A DNA stretch of 64,000 nt from Prevotella sp. KH2C16 (GTDB lineage: Bacteria > Bacteroidota > Bacteroidia > Bacteroidales > Bacteroidaceae), in assembly GCF_900113305.1 (NCBI RefSeq), contig NZ_FOOW01000003.1, positions 1 through 64,000 on the forward strand, written 5' to 3'. The translations under genes and the position numbers were made by a program. How positions within the stretch are numbered: the first letter of the stretch is position 1; each line of letters opens with the position of its first letter. Positions 9,998-28,375 of the stretch are shown one piece after another. Below the pieces are notes generated by a model that made no database searches, was not told where the DNA came from, and saw only the letters and a list, made by a program, of their open reading frames with translations.

Positions 9998-10340
9998 GCG
10001 ATGCGCCGAACTGATGACGCAGCACTACAGGGAGCTCGCCTATCTGGCGGACATGGACGCGGACATCTTTCAGGACACCTACCTGTGGATGGCCGCCCAT
10101 CCCAGTCATACCCGCGACTTCGTGCGGGAGTTCCGCATGCGCTTCCACTTCCTCAGGAGGAGTGCCGCGCACGGTGCCTTCTGCACCGGCACGCCGGACA
10201 TCCCAGACGACCAAGAGCCGTACGCAGAAGAGTGTTCAGGAGAGATGGAAGAGGATTTCATAAAAAAAATAAAGGATGCCGTATATCAGGAGACACACGC
10301 CAAGAGAAGGGCGAAGAGAAAGGGAGCTCGCCGACATTAA
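9978..10340 (+). CDS. Small sigma-70 region-2-like protein
   Basis: 120 residues from the ATG at 9978, overlapping the previous gene by 20 bases; a second in-frame ATG at 10014 is possible but would cut the first helix. The core CAELMTQHYRELAYLADMDA followed by DIFQDTYLWMAAHP resembles region 2 of ECF sigma factors (aspartate-rich helix, then a Q-D-T-alpha-L-W motif). No region 4 helix-turn-helix is seen; the C-terminus is a basic tail (KRRAKRKGARRH). It could be a phage transcription factor for late genes or an RNA polymerase binder. The assignment is by motif resemblance only. Confidence 0.5.
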   Translation: MTRRGDERCAELMTQHYRELAYLADMDADIFQDTYLWMAAHPSHTRDFVREFRMRFHFLRRSAAHGAFCTGTPDIPDDQEPYAEECSGEMEEDFIKKIKDAVYQETHAKRRAKRKGARRH

Positions 10341-10605
10341 GCGGCGGAAGAGACGGAAGGTGTACGCCTCGGCGCGGTGGAGGCGGATGAGCGCGGCCTA
10401 CCTGCTGCGCCATCCCCTGTGCGAGCAGTGCATGCAGCGGGGGCTTACCGTCCCCGCCGTCGATGTGCACCACAGGGTGTCCTTCACCGCTTTCGACGGC
10501 ATGCAGATGCTCGCCGTCGCCTATAATCCGGATAACCTCGTGGCGCTCTGTAAGGAGTGCCACACGAAAATACATTTACATGCAAAAGAAAAAGACGCTG
10601 TTTGA
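10276..10605 (+). CDS. HNH endonuclease of the packaging module
   Basis: 109 residues. After a very basic N-terminus come the zinc-binding and catalytic elements: CEQC (about residues 49-52), VDVHHRVSF with the catalytic His pair, the Asn in NPDNLVALC, and CKECHTKIHLH. This is the compact HNH protein encoded next to terminase genes in many cos phages, where it works with the terminase in cleaving concatemers. It overlaps the sigma-like gene by 65 bases and TerS by 26 bases. Confidence 0.85.
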   Translation: MPYIRRHTPREGRRERELADIKRRKRRKVYASARWRRMSAAYLLRHPLCEQCMQRGLTVPAVDVHHRVSFTAFDGMQMLAVAYNPDNLVALCKECHTKIHLHAKEKDAV

Positions 10606-12946: not shown

Positions 12947-14221
12947 ATGCCGAATATTTTCAAGAGGCTATTCAGCCGCAAGTCAGAGAACAGGAGCAGC
13001 GACGGCACCACCACGGTGTCCTTCACGAACGGAATGCTGGGGGCGTTCACCGAGAACAGGAGCCTCCAGCTGTCAACGGTATACAGGTGCGTGGACTGCA
13101 TCAGCGATGCGGTGGCACAGCTGCCTATAGAGATTATGAGGGTAAACAGTAACGGATACAAGCGTAACGCCTACGACCACCCGGCCTACTACCTCATCGC
13201 CAAGGAGCCGAACCGCCGCATGTCCCGGTACATGATGATGAAGGCTGCCGTGTCGGCGATGATACTCAAGGGCAACGCGTATATCTATATCAGCAGGGAC
13301 GATGCGGGCAACGCTATAGGTCTCGAGTTCCTGAAGCCCGGGACGGTTACCGTCATCGACGACGAGCACGGGCACATCATGGCGTACGGCCATCCCGCCT
13401 ACGGGTGGATAGAGCCCGACAACATGATTCACCTGATCAACTTCAGCACCGACGGCGAGCATGGCATGAGCACCATCAGCTATGCCGCGCAGGCCATAGA
13501 GCTTGCAGTCGATTCCGAGAACCATGCGAAGGGGTTCTTCAAGGGCGGTGCGAACCTCTCCGGCGTCGTTACCGTGAACAGCGTGCTGACGCAGAAGCAG
13601 AAGAAGGACTTCCTCGCCTCGTGGTATCAGAACTTCGACCCGAACACCGGACACCCGAACGGCGTCGCCATCATGGAGGCGGACATGGACTTCAAGCCCA
13701 TCACCGTGAACCCCGCCGACGCGCAGCTCCTCGAGACGCGCAAGTACAATGTAGAAGACATCTGCCGCTTCTTCGGCGTGTCGCCCGTGAAGGCCTACGA
13801 CCTCAGCAAGTCGAGCTATTCCACCATCGAGGCCACGCAGCTGGCGTTTCTCACCGACACCCTGCAGCCCCTTCTCGAGAAGATAGAGCTCGAGTTCGAG
13901 CGCAAGGTCTTCGTCCCTTCCGAACGGTTCCTCTATGATGTGCGCTTCGATACCTCGTCCCTCATCAGGACGGACAAGAACGCCCTCGCGGAATATTACA
14001 CGAAGCTCTTCCAGCTCGGCGTGTTCACCACGAACGACATACGCCGCCAGCTCGACCTCGAGCCAGTCGAGGCCGGTAATCAGGCATTCATCCAGTCCAA
14101 CCTCGTGCCCATAGACCGGCCGCTCGGAGCCACGCAGGCGCAGCAGCAGCCGGGCAACACCGTGAACGGCAGCAACAACCAGGACGAGGACGACATCTCC
14201 AGTCAGGGCGGGCAGGGATAG
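12947..14221 (+). CDS. Portal protein, HK97 family
   Basis: 424 residues. LSTVYRCVDCISDAVAQLPI, KGNAYIYISRD and the stretch FGVSPVKAYDLSKSSYSTIEA are hallmark segments of HK97-type portals. The Gln-rich, low-complexity C-terminus (QAQQQPGN) is typical. The dodecameric portal is the vertex through which DNA enters and leaves the head. In most relatives the protease and capsid follow directly on the same strand; here those genes are 3.3 kb away on the opposite strand. Confidence 0.92.
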   Translation: MPNIFKRLFSRKSENRSSDGTTTVSFTNGMLGAFTENRSLQLSTVYRCVDCISDAVAQLPIEIMRVNSNGYKRNAYDHPAYYLIAKEPNRRMSRYMMMKAAVSAMILKGNAYIYISRDDAGNAIGLEFLKPGTVTVIDDEHGHIMAYGHPAYGWIEPDNMIHLINFSTDGEHGMSTISYAAQAIELAVDSENHAKGFFKGGANLSGVVTVNSVLTQKQKKDFLASWYQNFDPNTGHPNGVAIMEADMDFKPITVNPADAQLLETRKYNVEDICRFFGVSPVKAYDLSKSSYSTIEATQLAFLTDTLQPLLEKIELEFERKVFVPSERFLYDVRFDTSSLIRTDKNALAEYYTKLFQLGVFTTNDIRRQLDLEPVEAGNQAFIQSNLVPIDRPLGATQAQQQPGNTVNGSNNQDEDDISSQGGQG

Positions 14222-14317
14222 CCGTGTCCGTTAACAAAATCCACCCCCAAAATAGCCCCGTGCGCGAAAGCAACAGTTCCACGCGGTTTCGGGCGTGCCG
14301 CCCGCAGAATCCTGGGC

Positions 14318-15511
14318 CTATGGGGTCTGTCCCCTCACGCCGTTGAGATAGTCTATCACCTTCCTGTTGGCCTCGTCGATTTTTTTGTTGTCGAAGTCGA
14401 TATAGATGTCCGCGGTCATGCTGTCCGCGTGTCCGAGAGCCTTTGCTATGGTATCCCGCGGTATGTCCAGCTTTGCCGCCGTCGTCGCCCATGTATGCCG
14501 TGCCCAGTATGTCGTGAGCTCCGGGAACAGCGGCGACCTTTCCACCTTCCTCATCTTCCCGCACTTGTCCTTGATTATCCGTGCCGGTCCGATTTTCTTC
14601 AGGGCTTCGTCCATCTGGTGCATGTATGTGCGGTACTGTCTTCCGTCGTCGAGGCATGCCAGCAGCCAGTGCCGTCCCTTGTATCTGTCTATTATCTCCT
14701 TTGCTTCCGGCTGTACGGCGATGTCATAGAGGCGTCCCGTCTTCTGTCGGTGGTATACGCAGCGTCCGTCCGTCAGTCCCCTGAGCTGTAGCAGGTCTGC
14801 CCCGTTGATGCCGATGAGGTACACCATCAGCACGAAGATGTCGCGGTACTGTACCTGCCACGGCTCGCACGGGTAGTCGCGCAGCGTGGCAAACTGTTCC
14901 GGCGTAAGTGCCCTCTTCCGTGTTGTCTCCGTCTTTATGCGATAGTGTCGGAACGGGTACCGTGTCGTCAGTTCCTTGTCTATCGCCCAGTTGAATACCG
15001 CCCGTATGTTCCGCAGCACTATTGATATGCCGTTCGTGTGCATGCCTGTCGTCCGGCAGTACTGTTCTAGCCGTGCGAGCCAGTCGGCATCCACGCTATT
15101 GAATGTCGCCGTCGCGTCGAACCTCCCTACCTTCCGTGCCGTCTGCTTGTACAGGTCTCGCGTACCTGGTGCCGTGCGTGTATTCCCGAACTCCTGTATA
15201 TAGTCCGTTAGCCTCTTCGTGCGCGGCCTTCCGTGTATCTCGGCGAGGATGTATTCCTTCATCATGTGCGGTGGCAGGTCAGGGTTCCGCAGTCCTATCT
15301 CCTCAATCTTCAGCCATATCGCCATCAGGCGTGATGTCTTCGCCTGACTGTTCGGTATGCTATTCGGGAAGGCGGTACCGCTGAACTTCGTCGGCGACGA
15401 CAGTCCCGTATTGACATAGAACCGCTTGCCGTTGTGGTTGACGGATATGTATACGCCGTATTCTCCGTGTCCGTTCTTTCTCGAGCCGTCCACATATACT
15501 TGCATTTTCAT
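14318..15511 (-). CDS. int: Phage integrase, tyrosine recombinase
   Basis: 397 residues. N-terminal arm-type DNA-binding region (about 1-80), SAM-like core-binding domain (about 95-190) and catalytic domain (about 210-390). Visible catalytic parts are the beta-hairpin Lys in YHRQKTGRLYDI, YWARHTWAT with the second Arg, ALGHADS with its His, and the nucleophile Tyr in TADIYIDF. The usual first Arg is not at its normal place: the segment reads VYLIGINGADLLQL with Asn there, as in several Bacteroidota recombinases. It points away from the tRNA-Gly gene whose 3' end is the likely attachment site. Confidence 0.9.
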   Translation of the reverse strand: MKMQVYVDGSRKNGHGEYGVYISVNHNGKRFYVNTGLSSPTKFSGTAFPNSIPNSQAKTSRLMAIWLKIEEIGLRNPDLPPHMMKEYILAEIHGRPRTKRLTDYIQEFGNTRTAPGTRDLYKQTARKVGRFDATATFNSVDADWLARLEQYCRTTGMHTNGISIVLRNIRAVFNWAIDKELTTRYPFRHYRIKTETTRKRALTPEQFATLRDYPCEPWQVQYRDIFVLMVYLIGINGADLLQLRGLTDGRCVYHRQKTGRLYDIAVQPEAKEIIDRYKGRHWLLACLDDGRQYRTYMHQMDEALKKIGPARIIKDKCGKMRKVERSPLFPELTTYWARHTWATTAAKLDIPRDTIAKALGHADSMTADIYIDFDNKKIDEANRKVIDYLNGVRGQTP

Positions 15512-15669
15512 GAGCTGCTTGCGTTTTTACTTGCATTTTTGCATACTAATAAGTGCCGAAAAGCGGCAATAATGCGTATGTGTGCAAAGTGTATTGGTTG
15601 TTTTGTTTGTACCTGTCGGTTGTCGTGGTTTTCTGTAGTCCCTTTGTTTATCGTGGTTTCAGGGTGTTG

Positions 15670-15740
15670 AGCGGAATACGGGAGTCGAACCCGCCTCCCA
15701 GGCTTGGGAAGCCCGTGCACTACCGATGTGCTAATTCCGC
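15670..15740 (-). tRNA. tRNA-Gly (CCC anticodon), probable prophage attachment site
   Basis: Minus-strand cloverleaf: acceptor stem GCGGAAT/ATTCCGC, T-loop GGTTCGACTCC, anticodon loop TTCCCAA giving CCC (reads GGG). No encoded CCA: the bases after the discriminator are CAA. The 3' end faces the phage integrase gene about 160 bases away, the usual arrangement after integration into a tRNA 3' end. The second att copy would lie left of the window. Confidence 0.9.
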
Positions 15741-15771
15741 GAATATGCCGTGTGTTTAAGCCGACCTTCAG

Positions 15772-15844
<73 letters not shown>

Positions 15845-16449: not shown

Positions 16450-18975
16450 ATGACCAGTCAATTTTCACCTAAAGTTTCCGAAATCCTTGCGTTTTCGCGT
16501 GAAGAGGCAACAAGATTGGCCAGTCGGTCAGTCGGGCCGGAACATCTGCTGCTCGGAATTCTGAGAGAAAGAACAGGTATCATCCCCGGCCTCTTCGCCT
16601 GCATGAATGTAAATGTTCAGTCGGTCAAGACAGAGCTCGAGTTGCGCGTGCGCGAGGACGAGATTAACGAGCCTATTGTTACAGCGGAGCTTGTGCTTAA
16701 CGAAAAGGCCAGCAACATTCTTAAACTGGCCGTCTTGGAGGCCCGGGTACAGCATACCCAGATGGTGGATGTCCACCACCTTCTCCTTGCAATCCTGCAT
16801 GATCAGGTAAATAACGGTGCAAAGGAAATACTTGAGTTCAACAATATAAACTACGAGGACACCCTTGCGTATCTGCAAAAGCAGACGAGCACTCATGACG
16901 GAATTGGCTTGCCGGACGATGACGAGATGGACGAAGACGATAGATCTGCCGATAACGGCAAGACCCAACAGCGACAAACTGTCACACAAACAGGCCGACA
17001 AAATGGCAAGACCCCTGTATTGGACAACTTTTCTACCGATCTCACGCTGGCTGCCGAGCAAGATAAACTCGACCCTGTGGTGGGCCGCGAGAAAGAGATT
17101 CAACGGGTCATTGAGATTATCGGCCGTCGGAAGAAGAACAATCCGATTCTCATTGGTGAGCCAGGAGTCGGCAAGAGTGCCATCGTAGAGGGACTGGCTC
17201 AGCTTATAGCCAAGAAGAAGACTTCTCCAGCCTTGTTCAATAAGCGGTTGGTCAGCCTCGACATGACCGCCATCGTTGCGGGAACCAAGTATCGTGGCCA
17301 GTTCGAAGAGCGCATTCGTGCCCTGCTCAAAGAGCTGGAACAGAATCCTGACATTATCATCTTTATCGACGAGATTCACACTTTGATCGGTGCGGGAAGC
17401 ACTCCGGGCAGCATGGATGCCGCCAACATCATGAAGCCGGCATTGGCACGGGGAACCATCCAATGCATCGGCGCGACTACTTTGGACGAATACCGCAATT
17501 CCATAGAGAGAGACGGAGCTCTGGAGAGGCGGTTTCAAAAGGTGCTCGTAGAGCCTGCTACGGCCGAAGAAACCTTACAGATACTCCGCAACATCAAAGA
17601 CCGCTATGAGGGTCATCATCATGTGAGCTATACGGACGAGGCGTTGCAAGCCTGCGTGAAGCTTACAGACCGATATGTCAACGACCGCTTCTTCCCCGAT
17701 AAGGCCATCGACGCAATGGACGAGGTCGGCTCCAGGATACACCTCCAGAATGCCGTTATTCCACCGGAAATTACGGAGAAGGAGAAGCAAATAGAGGATT
17801 TGAAACAGAAAAAGCAGCAAGCTGTAAAGAATCAGAACTTCGAACTTGCGGCGGGCTTCCGCGACAAACAGCTTGAATCCGAGGCCGAATTGGCCGAACT
17901 GCAGCAGCAATGGAAAAACGGAGATACGGCTAATCGTGTTGAAATCACGGACAAGGAAGTTGCTGATGTCGTCTCGATGATGACCGGCGTGCCTGTTCAG
18001 AAAATGGCACAAGCCGAAGGAATCCGTCTGAAGGGCATGGCCGATGAGCTTAAGAAAGCCGTGATAGCTCAAGACACGGCCATCGACAAGATGGTTAAGG
18101 CTATTCAGCGCAATCGTGTGGGACTGAAAGAACCGAATCATCCCATCGGCGCTTTCATGTTTCTGGGCCCCACGGGAGTCGGAAAAACCTACCTCGCAAA
18201 AAAGCTTGCAGAGTTCATGTTCGGTTCTCCTGACGCTCTCATCCGCATTGATATGAGCGAGTATACAGAGAGCTTCAATGTCTCGAGGCTCATCGGAGCA
18301 CCTCCGGGATATGTCGGATATGAAGAGGGAGGCCAGCTTACGGAAAGAGTTCGCCGCCATCCCTACTCCATCGTGCTCCTTGATGAGATTGAGAAAGCAC
18401 ACGGAAATGTGTTCAACCTCTTGCTGCAGGTGCTCGACGAAGGTCGTCTCACCGACGGAAACGGTCGTTTAATTGACTTCCGCAACACGGTTATCATCAT
18501 GACCTCAAACGCAGGAACCCGCCAACTGAAAGAATTCGGGCATGGAATCGGATTCAATGCGAGCGGTTCCACCGGTCTTAGTGTCAACGAGGAGGACAAG
18601 CAATATGCCCGCTCCATCATCCAGAAGAGCCTGAGTAAGCAGTTTGCACCGGAGTTTCTCAATCGTCTCGATGAGATTATTACCTTCGACCAGCTGGATA
18701 TCAATGCCATCAAGCAGATTATAGATGTCGACTTGAGGGATCTCTTCAAGCGAGTTGAGGAAATGGGCTATCATCTCCAGATTACTGACAAGGCGAAGGA
18801 ATTCGTGGCCTCAAAGGGCTATGATGTGCAGTTTGGAGCCCGTCCGTTGAAGAGAGCCATTCAGAACTATATCGAAGACGGACTCTCGGAACTCATCCTC
18901 TCAGGCGAGCTCAAGCCCGGGGACACGATATCCATCGGCAAGAATCCCAACAAGGAAGAGCTTACCTTCAAGTAA
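16450..18975 (+). CDS. clpC: ClpC-type AAA+ unfoldase of the Clp protease
   Basis: 841 residues, normal length for ClpC. Two Clp N-terminal repeats (about 1-150), an acidic linker, AAA+ module 1 with GEPGVGKSA (Walker A, about 237) and IIFIDEIH (Walker B), a UVR-like middle region [20 protein letters not shown] (about 430-480), and AAA+ module 2 with GPTGVGKTY (about 576) and LLDEIEKAH. It unfolds substrates and feeds them to ClpP in the cytoplasm. The gene stands alone between the tRNA-Lys operon and a convergent glycosidase gene. Confidence 0.95.
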
Positions 18976-19016
18976 GCTGTCGTTTCAAGTATAGTTACGG
19001 GATATTTCTAAATAGA

Positions 19017-19099
19017 TTACCAGTCGTTGGCAATGGTATTACAAGCAGCTTGTAACACCGTTACCAGCGGCTGGTAATTCTGTTACAAGCCGTTTGTAA
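19017..19099. repeat. Array of four 17-bp palindromes with 22-bp period
   Basis: Units start at 19017, 19039, 19061 and 19083, exactly 22 bases apart: TTACCAGTCGTTGGCAA, TTACAAGCAGCTTGTAA, TTACCAGCGGCTGGTAA, TTACAAGCCGTTTGTAA. Spacers are five bases (TGGTA, CACCG, TTCTG). CCAG-type and CAAG-type units alternate. Units 2 and 3 are perfect palindromes apart from the three central bases; units 1 and 4 have one or two mismatches. The array fills the convergent gap between clpC and the GH2 gene, so it may form 3'-UTR hairpins for both, or be an array of protein sites on one DNA face. Confidence 0.95.
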
Positions 19100-19138: not shown

Positions 19139-21616
19139 TCATTTGCTACTGTAGGTAGCCCCGATGCATCCGTCCGTTACCTTCAGCTTATACTGCCCGT
19201 TAGGCTTGGTTCTCTTCAAAGTGATGACGAGTTTCCCCTTAAACAGCTTCATCCGTGGCTTCGTGAAGGATTCCAGACTCGTGGCATCGCCGTTGCATAC
19301 GGCCTTGAACTCTGCGTTGCCACTCACAAGGAAGCTTAAGTCATTGTCGGCTTCAGGTACTTCAATACCATTCTTGTCTATTGCACTGACCGTAAGATAT
19401 ATCAGGTCGCTGCCATTGTATGACGAAAGCTCTCGGGAAGCATCTATGCGATACCCTGCGACGGTGCCTGCGGTGCGGCGCACATCCTCGCCAATCTTGT
19501 TCCCATCAGAGTCATAGACCACGACGCGCAGTTCGCCGGGCTCATAGCGCACATTGTTCCAACGCAGGCGATACCTGTCCAGCAACGGCTGGACATTCAC
19601 GCTGTCAGGCTCTATGTCCCATGCGTGCTTGGAAAAGTCTTTCTTGACCCGTCCCTGCGACTTGCCGTTGATGAACAATTCGCCCTCTACCCCATCCGTA
19701 TAGCAATATACCGGCGTAACCTTTCCTTCCCTTCCCGGCCATGTCCAATGGGGAAGCAGGTGGACGGTATGGCTCTTCTTGTTCCATTGCGAGCGATAGA
19801 GGTAATACCTGTCCTTGGGAATCCCTGCCAAATCGCAGATTCCGAAATAGCTGGAACGCGACGGCCAATACTTGTCGTAGGGGGTAGGCTCTCCCAGATA
19901 GTCGAATCCCGTCCACACAAACTGCCCTATCGTCCATGGATAATCGTCCTGCATCATGAAGTCGGTCTCCGGCAGATTGCTCCACGGACAATACTGATTG
20001 TCATATCCGTTCACCTGTCCGTCAGGATAGGTTACATCAGCGTTTACCGCAACGGGGAACTTGTATACTCCCCGACTGCTGATCGTAGAGGCAGTTTCGG
20101 AGCCAAGGAGGAATCCTTGCGGCAGCATTTCATGCCCTTTGCCGTATCGGTGTACCCGATAGTTGAAGCCGGGCACATCCATCACTTGTGCAAATCCCGA
20201 CTTCAAGGCGTTGTCCACCTGGTCTAATCCCTGGGTTACCATGTGCGCGGAATCCAGCTTGTGGCAGAGTTCCTGCAAATGCCGTGCATACTTCACACCT
20301 TCTTCGCTCCCTTGTTCCGGTATCTCGTTTCCGATACTGTACATTATCAGGGAGGCATGATTGCGATGATTCAGCACGAGGTTGGTAATGTCCTTATCAG
20401 CCCAATCCTTGAAAAAGCGTGCGTAGCCGTTCTTGCACTTCGGATAGATCCACATGTCGAAGCTCTCGGCCATGACCATCATACCCAGCGAATCATAGAC
20501 TTCCATCTGCATCGTAGAGGGCATGTTGTGCGCTGTTCGTATGGCATCGCAACCCATCTCCTTTAGAATCTTCACCTGCCGAATGAGTGCGTCCTTATTG
20601 ACAGCCGCCCCCAAGGGTCCCAAATCATGGTGCAGGCAGACGCCCTGGAGCTTCCGCGGCACCCCGTTCAATTGGAATTCCCGCTCCCGGTCAATCTTCA
20701 CGGTGCGCACGCCCACTTTCTTCACCAGCTCGTCAAACAGGGTATTATCACAATAGAGCTGGCAGACAAGGGTATACAGGTTAGGAGTCTCTGGAGACCA
20801 TAGCCGTGGGCTTGGCAACTTTATCCGTGTACCAGCCTTGTCTTTCTTGTCTAATGGTACATCCTGCAAAGCCACCTCCCGCCCCTTCTCGTCTAAAAGC
20901 ATGAACCTGACAAACGCGGGCATGTCTTCAAACTGCAAGGCATTGACGGCCTGTATATCGACTGCCACGACCGCCTCGCTGGCATTCTGGCTTACGGTAC
21001 GGAAATAAACGGACCAGTCATCCAGACGACAATTACTCGAGCTGACCAGCTGCACGGGGCGATAGAGTCCGGCTCCGGGATACCAGCGACTGCTTTCCTC
21101 CATGTTCCGCAAATGCACGAGCACCTCGTTCTTTTCCCCCGGCTTATTTAAATAAGGTGAGATGTCAATGCGGAAAGCATTATATCCATAAGGCCAATAT
21201 CCCGCGCGCATGCCGTTCACATAAACTATGGGCTCGGACATGGCACCATCGAACCAAAGCTCCGTGTGTGCTCTGAAATCATAGACATCGTCATCTGCCG
21301 GTGGAATGACTACCGAGGTCCTATACCAGCCTTCTCCTATCCAGGGAAGAGCCCCCGAACGGCCGCTCTTCTCCGTGGCCACCGACTCTCCATTCTGGGT
21401 TATCGCCACCTTCTGCAAGTCCCATTTCTTGTCAAACGGGCCGTTGATTGCCCAGTCATGGGGCACTTTCACTGATTCCCAATGCAGACTGTCGCGGGAG
21501 AATTCCCAGTCCGCAAGATTTGCATTCCACCTTACCTGGGCTGAAACCGTGAGCCTGGAAACGGCAAGGCAAAAACCAAGTACTCCAACTTTAAAAATCT
21601 TCTTCATTCTTCTCAA
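19139..21616 (-). CDS. Secreted glycoside hydrolase family 2 enzyme (beta-galactosidase type)
   Basis: 825 residues with an N-terminal signal peptide (FKVGVLGFCLAVSRLTVSA; ATG at 21616 or 21607). Sugar-binding jelly-roll domain (about 30-200), Ig-like domain (about 200-310), TIM barrel (about 310-600) with acid/base Glu in YSIGNEIPE (about 431) and nucleophile Glu in LLGSETAST (about 506), then C-terminal Ig-like/DUF4982 domains with GVEGELFINGKSQG. It likely removes terminal beta-linked sugars in the periplasm. No susCD pair is adjacent. The substrate cannot be read from sequence. Confidence 0.88.
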   Translation of the reverse strand: MRRMKKIFKVGVLGFCLAVSRLTVSAQVRWNANLADWEFSRDSLHWESVKVPHDWAINGPFDKKWDLQKVAITQNGESVATEKSGRSGALPWIGEGWYRTSVVIPPADDDVYDFRAHTELWFDGAMSEPIVYVNGMRAGYWPYGYNAFRIDISPYLNKPGEKNEVLVHLRNMEESSRWYPGAGLYRPVQLVSSSNCRLDDWSVYFRTVSQNASEAVVAVDIQAVNALQFEDMPAFVRFMLLDEKGREVALQDVPLDKKDKAGTRIKLPSPRLWSPETPNLYTLVCQLYCDNTLFDELVKKVGVRTVKIDREREFQLNGVPRKLQGVCLHHDLGPLGAAVNKDALIRQVKILKEMGCDAIRTAHNMPSTMQMEVYDSLGMMVMAESFDMWIYPKCKNGYARFFKDWADKDITNLVLNHRNHASLIMYSIGNEIPEQGSEEGVKYARHLQELCHKLDSAHMVTQGLDQVDNALKSGFAQVMDVPGFNYRVHRYGKGHEMLPQGFLLGSETASTISSRGVYKFPVAVNADVTYPDGQVNGYDNQYCPWSNLPETDFMMQDDYPWTIGQFVWTGFDYLGEPTPYDKYWPSRSSYFGICDLAGIPKDRYYLYRSQWNKKSHTVHLLPHWTWPGREGKVTPVYCYTDGVEGELFINGKSQGRVKKDFSKHAWDIEPDSVNVQPLLDRYRLRWNNVRYEPGELRVVVYDSDGNKIGEDVRRTAGTVAGYRIDASRELSSYNGSDLIYLTVSAIDKNGIEVPEADNDLSFLVSGNAEFKAVCNGDATSLESFTKPRMKLFKGKLVITLKRTKPNGQYKLKVTDGCIGATYSSK

Positions 21617-27250: not shown

Positions 27251-28375
27251 ATGAAAAAAGTGAACATCGTTTTACTATTGCTTGTATTTTTCCTAATCAG
27301 TGCGTCGGCGCAAAGGAGAAAGGCAAGGGTAATGCCTAAGCCTGTTGTGAAGCAAGAGTCTCCACAGGATAAGCTATATAAGTCGATGCTGCCATCAACG
27401 GCAAAGGTGATGTTTATTGACAGCCTTGTTGTTGACAAGGACTCCTTCCTGACAAGGATTCCTCTTAATCGGGAGTCCGGTTACCTTTATGCAACCAAAG
27501 ACGGTATCAATGGCTATACAAATGAGTTTGAGAATCGCACCTATTACTCTGCGGAGAAAGATTCAGCACGCTATCTCTACTCTGCCGACAAATTAGGGAA
27601 AGACTGGGGAAAGGGAACCATGCTTGATGGCATTGGAGACGATTATAGCACGCAGGACTTTCCCTTCCTTATGTCAGATGGTATCACTCTGTTCTTTGCA
27701 GCCAAGGGAAAATATAGTTTGGGAGGATACGACATCTTCACCACTATGTTTGACAGCCAGTCCGGCCAATTCTATGAGCCGCAGAACTACGGCCTTCCTT
27801 TCAATTCCCGTGCCAACGACTATCTGCTTGCCATTGATGAAGTAGATACCCTTGGCTGGCTTGTCAGCGATCGCTTCCAACCCGAAGGAAAAGTCTGCAT
27901 CTATACCTTTGTCCCCACCACCCCACGGCAGAGCTTTGAGGACGAAGACATTACAAATGAAGAAATCTCTAAATATGCGAACCTGAATGCCATTGATGAT
28001 ACCTGGGAGTTTGGCAACCACAAGACGGCCATTGCCAGACTTGAGAGCATGAAGGCTCGAGAAGGGAAAAAGCATAATGCAAACGCAATTGACTTCGCCA
28101 TAAATGATGATACGGTATATCATGACATCCATGACTTCAAGTCTGCGAGCAATCGGCAACTGTTCCTCGAGTGGAAAGGCCAGAAGGGCTTGATGACAAG
28201 TGAGGAAGAAAAACTTCATAAGCTGCGGGAAGCCTATGCCAAAGGGAGTGAGTCTATACGGCAACAACTTCAACAAGAAATCATCCGTACAGAAGAGAAT
28301 ATTGGACAGCTAAGGCAATCCCTCCATCAAATGGAGAAGAAAATCAGGAATAATGAAATTAGCATACTAAAATAA
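27251..28375 (+). CDS. Secreted PD40 beta-propeller protein with C-terminal coiled coil
   Basis: 374 residues with a signal peptide (KKVNIVLLLLVFFLISASAQ). Residues 90-230 hold WD40-like PD40 repeats: FPFLMSDGITLFFAAKG, GGYDIFTTMFD, DYLLAIDEVDTLGWLVSDR. The last 70 residues are a charged coiled coil. PD40 domains in Bacteroidota often bind peptidoglycan-associated or T9SS partners (PorE-like), but there is no OmpA domain here. The ATG almost coincides with the predicted transcription start, so the mRNA may be leaderless. Nucleoside phosphorylase and mnmE follow within short gaps and may be co-transcribed. Confidence 0.75.
   Translation: MKKVNIVLLLLVFFLISASAQRRKARVMPKPVVKQESPQDKLYKSMLPSTAKVMFIDSLVVDKDSFLTRIPLNRESGYLYATKDGINGYTNEFENRTYYSAEKDSARYLYSADKLGKDWGKGTMLDGIGDDYSTQDFPFLMSDGITLFFAAKGKYSLGGYDIFTTMFDSQSGQFYEPQNYGLPFNSRANDYLLAIDEVDTLGWLVSDRFQPEGKVCIYTFVPTTPRQSFEDEDITNEEISKYANLNAIDDTWEFGNHKTAIARLESMKAREGKKHNANAIDFAINDDTVYHDIHDFKSASNRQLFLEWKGQKGLMTSEEEKLHKLREAYAKGSESIRQQLQQEIIRTEENIGQLRQSLHQMEKKIRNNEISILK

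Follow-up and report, generated by a model that had tools for sequence, protein, structure and literature searches.

The window analysed here is a stretch of 64,000 nucleotides from the genome of Prevotella sp. KH2C16 (G000 hereafter). Two of its ORFs converge: clpC (16450..18975, plus strand), which encodes a ClpC-type AAA+ ATPase with the Pfam domains AAA_2, ClpB_D2-small and Clp_N, and a glycoside hydrolase family 2 gene (GH2; 19139..21616, minus strand) with Glyco_hydro_2 domains. Direct reading of the gap between their ends confirmed the four palindromes in exact 22-bp phase that an earlier note on this DNA had placed at 19017-19099: each unit is 17 bp long, the spacers are exactly 5 nt throughout, and units of the TTACCAG and TTACAAG types alternate (CAG/AAG), as the note had said. 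By half-site typing, unit 1 (19017..19033, TTACCAG-TCG-TTGGCAA) and unit 3 (19061..19077, TTACCAG-CGG-CTGGTAA) are of the C type, and unit 2 (19039..19055, TTACAAG-CAG-CTTGTAA) and unit 4 (19083..19099, TTACAAG-CCG-TTTGTAA) of the A type. The 7-bp arms of units 1 to 4 pair at 5/7, 7/7, 7/7 and 6/7 positions, so that unit 1 is an imperfect palindrome. A degenerate fifth unit may lie in phase upstream of it, where the candidate TTACGGGATATTTCTAA (18995..19011) retains TTAC, has GTAA changed to CTAA, and forms 3/7 arm pairs. The clpC stop codon is 41 bp before unit 1 and the GH2 stop codon 39 bp after unit 4.

The array stands out from the rest of the window. With up to two mismatches, the unit pattern matches 8 times against 1.82 +/- 1.47 expected, a number reached in 0 of 100 shuffles, and all eight matches are the four units of the array read on two strands. 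In a scan that used no consensus and looked for three palindromes at a 22-bp period, the array scores 19 and 20 of a possible 21, the rest of the 64 kb stays below 17, and the maximum in 50 block-shuffled windows is 16; scans of the window at periods of 19, 20, 21, 23, 24 and 25 gave no match at a score of 17. That the array is not a CRISPR, as had been claimed, is borne out by its anatomy, 17-bp units and 5-nt spacers as opposed to the long, almost identical repeats and roughly 30-nt spacers of a CRISPR array. When 60 genomes were searched for an empty clpC-GH2 site, none of the matches listed spanned both genes, the closest clpC of a relative among them being at 77%. Elsewhere in the window, positions 12947-15844 contain a phage portal gene (PF04860) and a tyrosine integrase gene (PF13102/PF00589) beside tRNA-Gly (15669-15740) and tRNA-Thr; a prophage or integrated element may end here, adjoining the tRNA genes.

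The genome-wide pattern search that the earlier note had proposed found the exact unit pattern 37 times in the forward and 41 times in the reverse direction in the 3.22 Mb of G000 (control 0), and the two-unit pattern with up to three mismatches gave 119 and 111 matches (control 0). From G000, 33 loci were retrieved; the counts given below use the 31 arrays of at least two units, 113 units in total. A spacing scan of these loci that also permitted 21, 23 and 44 found solely 22. In the flanks of loci L063-L094, a GCNGC core with the same 22-bp periodicity runs about three periods past the TTAC..GTAA units on both sides (periodicity scores of 2.44, 1.98 and 1.98 against 0.97 +/- 0.18); its arms differ from the TTAC type, and it is perhaps a fourth site class or a series of decayed units. 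An outer stem formed by the flanks was considered and rejected: the duplex energy of true flank pairs (mean -21.4) is barely above that of mismatched pairs (-19.5 +/- 5.9), and therefore no outer stem is conserved.

Three phased TTAC-N9-GTAA units are present in 40 of 299 genomes of the genus, with 79 forward matches in G000, 75 in G128 and 26 in G028, and the unit interiors vary by lineage. The reversed control of this pattern has matches in a single genome (G168, 3 per strand). A class-wide draw of 295 genomes yielded TTAC-type arrays in two, namely G000 and one AT-rich case; just three of the others belong to the same family and four to the same order outside the genus, and the draw is therefore a weak test of absence from the sister genera.

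An all-against-all comparison of the ORFs beside arrays brought out one family, in six loci of six genomes; other shared families had two members each. In five of the six loci the end of the ORF and the array, as called, are 5 to 15 bp apart, and all six ORFs match Pfam PF19555 (DUF6078), which is named in no paper of the literature searched. DUF6078 is present in 33 of the 40 array-bearing genomes of the genus and in 17 of 40 drawn from the remaining 259 (Fisher p 4e-4); completeness of 99% was the criterion for nearly all of the latter, a choice that biases against finding the association. Among the seven array-bearing genomes in which a DUF6078 match is absent, G137 and G012 are 99% complete. 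The linkage was quantified in 105 distinct DUF6078 genes, made up of 66 named loci, chosen by peptide patterns close to the TTACC clade, and 50 unnamed loci, taken from 125 DUF6078 matches as the best of 30 genomes plus 20 chosen by hand, less 11 duplicates. With a threshold of three phased palindromes of period 22 no more than 260 bp from the gene, an array lies downstream of 69 of the 105 genes and upstream of three (shuffled 0). Other periods from 14 to 40 give zero to four genes with a downstream array, except 33, which is 1.5 x 22 and gives 50. The median distance from the stop codon to the first unit is 25 bp, and the 69 gene-linked arrays have three units in 27 cases, four in 17, five in 19 and more in six. 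The protein-array pair extends beyond the genus to metagenome-assembled genomes of Bacteroides and Parabacteroides (for example L254, L257, L258 and L266), where the arrays 3′ of DUF6078 have other or similar arms. The earlier note had named, as the outcome that would count against it, an array found nowhere else and tied to no protein; instead, the arrays recur across the genus and a protein family is associated with them. On this comparison the arrays are a genuine trait of the genus, to which a protein family can now be linked.

G000 itself has three DUF6078 matches (C22:363-773, C24:119155-119586 and C17:55537-55944). The C17 gene is followed by three TTACA units that start 2 bp past its stop codon, and the C24 gene by GTTTCA-N5-TGAAAC-like units. 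The C22 gene, one of the 36 of 105 that fall below the downstream-array threshold, has one full TTACCAG unit 12 bp past its stop codon, then a partial unit, then IS-like sequence. The sequence ACGCGAGTTCGGGATAAG abuts a truncated array at both L177 and L093 (the start of C22 and the end of C43 of G000) and appears to be one end of an insertion sequence that inserted into both arrays.

The AlphaFold2 model of DUF6078 (pLDDT 94.2, pTM 0.81) has helices at residues 82-93 and 96-103 with a short turn between them and a further helix at 111-123. Four cysteines, all in the N-terminal half, are invariant or nearly so in the alignments, and our guess would be that this part binds a metal. DUF6078 is most likely a small dimeric DNA-binding protein with a putative C-terminal helix-turn-helix (HTH) of the lambda-repressor/XRE-like kind. 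VIA and Foldseek gave no clear fold family for it: Foldseek returned no PDB match at E <= 0.001, and the top VIA rows for residues 64-133 are weak matches (Aca10, Z 4.5; C.Kpn2I, 4.1; lambda cI, 4.0), with unrelated folds such as PBP2x and PII-like proteins ranking among the HTH rows. Short uncharacterised phage proteins head the viral rows (best E 0.029), several rows named HTH_XRE rank lower, and a PDB sequence search found none below E 0.6. In this reading of the model Asn96 and Arg101 would be positions 1 and 6 of the recognition helix, positions that contact bases in classical repressors.

Arm sequence and protein sequence change together. Besides TTACC and TTACA, the gene-linked arm types include GTTTC, TTTTC, GTCCA, GTCCC, TTCCC, CTCCC, GTACC and others, and protein identity is correlated with array similarity (Mantel r 0.445; maximum of 999 permutations 0.209). 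A table of residues against bases was drawn up for 28 of the 69 arrays, those with at least two TTAC-type units. Where residue 101 (Prevotella falsenii numbering), which follows the Tyr pair and lies in the predicted recognition helix, is Arg, base 5 is mostly C in 21 of 21 genes; where it is Lys or Leu, base 5 is mostly A in six of seven (Fisher p 2e-5 overall), the single exception being L190. On a tree of 38 proteins the Arg label requires five changes and the Lys label three, of which well-supported branches force at least three and at least two. L286 (Leu, A) and L249 (Arg, C) are neighbours with 92/90 support, and L203 (Leu, A) and L201 (Arg, C) fall in one strongly supported group. At residue 96, His in an LGGHG motif occurs in 11 genes whose arrays have other outer bases, and none of the 28 TTAC-type genes has His in that column, both of these being post hoc observations.

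The GTTTCA array linked to the C24 gene led to the prediction that dispersed arrays of the same kind would exist, and they were found. Among 53 genomes searched for two GTYTCA units with at most one mismatch, there are 31 matches in G000, 18 in G003, 32 in G026, one in G186 and none in the other 49; G000, G003 and G026 all have GTTTCA-type gene-linked arrays, which cover just part of the matches listed. G061 and G055 have local arrays of a GTTTC variant, yet gave no GTYTCA two-unit match. The reversed control has matches in four of the 53 genomes (G028, five per strand; G062, G046 and G191, one each); those in G028 are phased CARAGT-N5-ACTYTG sequences, perhaps another array type.

Site types also occur together within one array. 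On contig C12 of G000, a TTACCAG unit at 27967 is followed by GTTTCA units from 27989, exactly 22 bp on, and therefore different site types share one phase. Eleven of the 31 G000 arrays mix C and A types, ten by units and one by half-sites. In the window, unit 1 (C type) matches the unit behind the C22 gene and unit 2 (A type) the units behind the C17 gene, and on this correspondence we infer that the products of these two genes are their respective cognates. Since the window array alternates between C and A types, two of the three G000 paralogues should occupy it side by side.

The symmetry of the units might instead serve a transcript, as chains of small hairpins acting as a terminator, stabiliser or attenuator, given that every unit can fold and that the arrays lie near gene ends. 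The mismatches within arms bear on this alternative. On the transcribed strand of the 69 gene-linked arrays, G-U and A-C mismatches balance (92 versus 103, p 0.47), and therefore the signal looks DNA-level; the G-U share also equals the one found in windows outside the arrays on the same stretches (469:542, p 0.88). Windows displaced by 5 bp, which still take in parts of the array with its conserved bases, have a lower share than the units (157:281 versus 92:103, p 0.008), and this comparison speaks for RNA. No Rfam family is above its gathering score, and no GC-rich stem with a T run lies inside the array of the window, in agreement with the claim that it is not a terminator; a single weak match of the terminator scan falls at the end of clpC, on the minus strand (18978-18959). 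By eye, a GC-rich stem distinct from the array can be seen after it at L205 and L272. A role as an RNA element is thus very improbable, and the remark that RNA from either strand would fold into four hairpins is left without support, the transcribed strand having no G-U excess. As to the DNA, half-site classes agree in 94% of cases within a unit (113 units), 78% across a spacer and 75% two units apart, where chance gives 51%. At a locus shared by three species, made up of a DUF6078 gene, an array and what we read as a threonyl-tRNA synthetase gene, the DUF6078 gene and array have been inherited in place. Arms there are identical at 114 of 126 positions and spacers at 18 of 45, totals that add up three pairwise comparisons which are not independent.

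A cooperative dimeric protein bound to one face of the DNA, as the earlier note had envisaged, gains comparative support from the linked family of predicted HTH proteins, the covariation, the homotypy, the 22-bp period and the cognate prediction. One of the closest parallels is the binding of lambda CI and Cro at OR and OL, in which an HTH dimer binds 17-bp palindromes, several of them a few bases apart, with cooperation between neighbours. Unlike the lambda operators, the DUF6078 arrays are many per genome, are held in exact 22-bp phase and usually have three to five units; they lie 3′ of genes rather than over promoters, and several paralogues and mixed arrays are involved. DUF6078 also differs from the lambda repressors in its additional four-cysteine N-terminal part.

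By this analogy the arrays could form an ordinary transcription-factor regulon, lambda-operator-like clusters that control nearby promoters; clusters of several 17-bp palindromes and a protein with a predicted HTH are what such a regulon would have. One gene family, moreover, occurs in 22 of the 105 DUF6078 neighbourhoods, directly downstream in 18, and an array reaches the threshold in 14 of these 22 loci; L282, the member that was scanned, encodes a primase-helicase of the BT4734/VapE type. Position tells against promoter control. Arrays lie 3′ of the DUF6078 gene in 69 of 105 cases and 5′ in just three, and the window array lies between two gene ends, with no promoter-like site there by a sigma-70 scan, which does not cover Bacteroidetes promoters. 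Of 31 G000 arrays, 29 could be placed, in 13 convergent, 13 codirectional and three divergent gaps, compared with five convergent, 21 codirectional and eight divergent among baseline gaps of at least 100 bp. With crude ORF calls, the bias towards convergent gaps is modest (13/29 versus 5/34, p 0.012) and the divergent deficit has p 0.20. The three divergent placements, and one array of G026 in front of a sigma-factor-like gene, point the other way. On balance a conventional regulon is unlikely.

The primase-helicase neighbour may point to a mobile-element origin. Of 70 pattern stretches examined for viral DUF6078, none was a relative, and for three proteins PHROGs gave nothing better than E 0.015 and PADLOC none. 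The same neighbour, found beside a subset of the genes, together with the 22-bp phase, could suggest that the arrays serve replication in the manner of iterons, with DUF6078 as the initiator of a replicon that is integrated or ancestral. The iterons of Rep_3 plasmids are protein sites in 22-bp phase next to the gene whose product binds them, and the sole IMG/VR stretch that matches the pattern (L125, IMGVR_UViG_3300011989_000009) has, at 10110-10440, 22-bp iteron-like arrays that flank a RepB-like ORF (in our reading) and whose units happen to fit TTAC-N9-GTAA. In contrast to Rep_3 iterons, the arrays discussed here are dispersed, many on one chromosome, and linked to another protein family. 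Rep_3 itself (PF01051) is absent from G000 and occurs in 14 of 40 genomes both with and without arrays, and hence without association; an iteron function is highly unlikely.

A further alternative is a selfish family resembling REP sequences and REPINs, in which DUF6078 would propagate the array that belongs to it from one intergenic place to another, by itself or together with an enzyme of the host. Gene-linked and dispersed arrays of the same type, differing by paralogue, would parallel REPINs, which are outlined in PMC3116915 as distinct groups of extragenic palindromes, each tied to one linked protein gene (RAYT); the patchy distribution of the arrays in the genus would fit as well. Here, however, the linked protein is DUF6078 rather than a Y1 transposase, and the units are phased 17-bp palindromes without conserved ends. 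Membership of the REP/RAYT system was rejected: the two genomes richest in arrays, G000 and G128, have no RAYT (PF01797), and across 80 genomes this family is found in 18 of 40 with arrays and 23 of 40 without, which is no association. No catalytic fold is recognised in the DUF6078 model, spacers and loops vary among the 31 G000 arrays, and the three-species locus keeps gene and array in place. BrickBuilt, a MITE of Porphyromonas gingivalis, likewise in the Bacteroidales, is described as intergenic tandem units of about two helical turns, 23-nt units without spacers between a leader and a tail with IS5-like inverted ends (PMC4596501). The DUF6078 arrays differ as palindromes with free spacers, and a BrickBuilt-like MITE was rejected in that the flanks of the 31 arrays have no common end beyond the 22-bp core within 40 bp.

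Comparison of the sister genomes G003 and G026 at five loci, a set that leaves out L311 and L188 of G003, which are DUF6078 loci and not dispersed arrays, as well as L314 of G026, indicates how arrays change. Two of the five loci are collinear, with arrays in both genomes; at the other three a segment has been gained or lost, the distance has changed, or there is an inversion with its junction at the array. One of these three (L328) has no array in G003, and its flanks are rearranged, which a selfish family might explain. At one of the two collinear loci, the L312 array of G026 has at least 13 units against six at L309 of G003 and consists of near-identical 44-bp repeats, an expansion whose sequence marks it as recent tandem growth in place. 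At L313 of G026, a segment of about 4 kb between two arrays, with genes that we read as ECF sigma, anti-sigma and TonB-receptor-like, is missing from the corresponding G003 locus (L308), which has one array stretch. Taken together, a selfish origin is rather doubtful.

The array in the window is, with good confidence on these comparisons, a cooperative binding array for DUF6078 dimers, one of many dispersed in the genome. Comparison shows linkage, period, covariation, cognate prediction and DNA-level symmetry; from them we infer binding by DUF6078, its dimeric state, cooperativity and co-occupancy by paralogues. One DUF6078 dimer would read one 17-bp palindrome; successive dimers, 22 bp or two helical turns apart, would sit on the same face of the DNA and bind cooperatively; paralogues with different recognition helices would use different half-sites, and two of the three in G000 would meet on the window array. 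Judged from its sequence, the array is of a kind that works like a phased operator array and is no member of the REP/RAYT, BrickBuilt or Rep_3 iteron families. The dispersed systems that organise the nucleoid, MatP/matS, Noc and SlmA, rely on single palindromic dimer sites, tens per genome, whereas here there are phased multi-unit arrays whose sequence is specific to lineage and paralogue. The weakest part of this interpretation is the role: with arrays placed close to the 3′ ends of genes and in convergent gaps, the likeliest would be a nucleoprotein barrier or boundary that limits read-through or takes part in structuring the nucleoid, ahead of promoter control. A broader proposal, offered tentatively and possible rather than probable, is that Prevotella and its relatives have a DNA-organising system in which DUF6078 paralogues with an HTH, of which some species have several, co-assemble in mixed order on 22-bp-phased gene-end arrays and so form chromosome boundaries, with a helix code in which residue 96 would specify the outer base and residue 101 base 5, and with arrays as junctions of rearrangement.

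Among the titles and abstract openings of the literature searched, none refers to such arrays in Prevotella. Palindromic candidate RNAs of Bacteroidetes, as described in PMC8040213, could conceivably be an earlier, unexplained sighting of the arrays. For DUF6078, a family of unknown function, the results propose a target sequence and a task open to experiment, and they would account for a type of repeat found time and again between genes in Prevotella and related bacteria. The paralogue-specific arrays, together with the match between a single residue and a single base, would provide a natural specificity series for an HTH-like protein, and the mixed arrays pose the question of whether different paralogues assemble on one DNA lattice.
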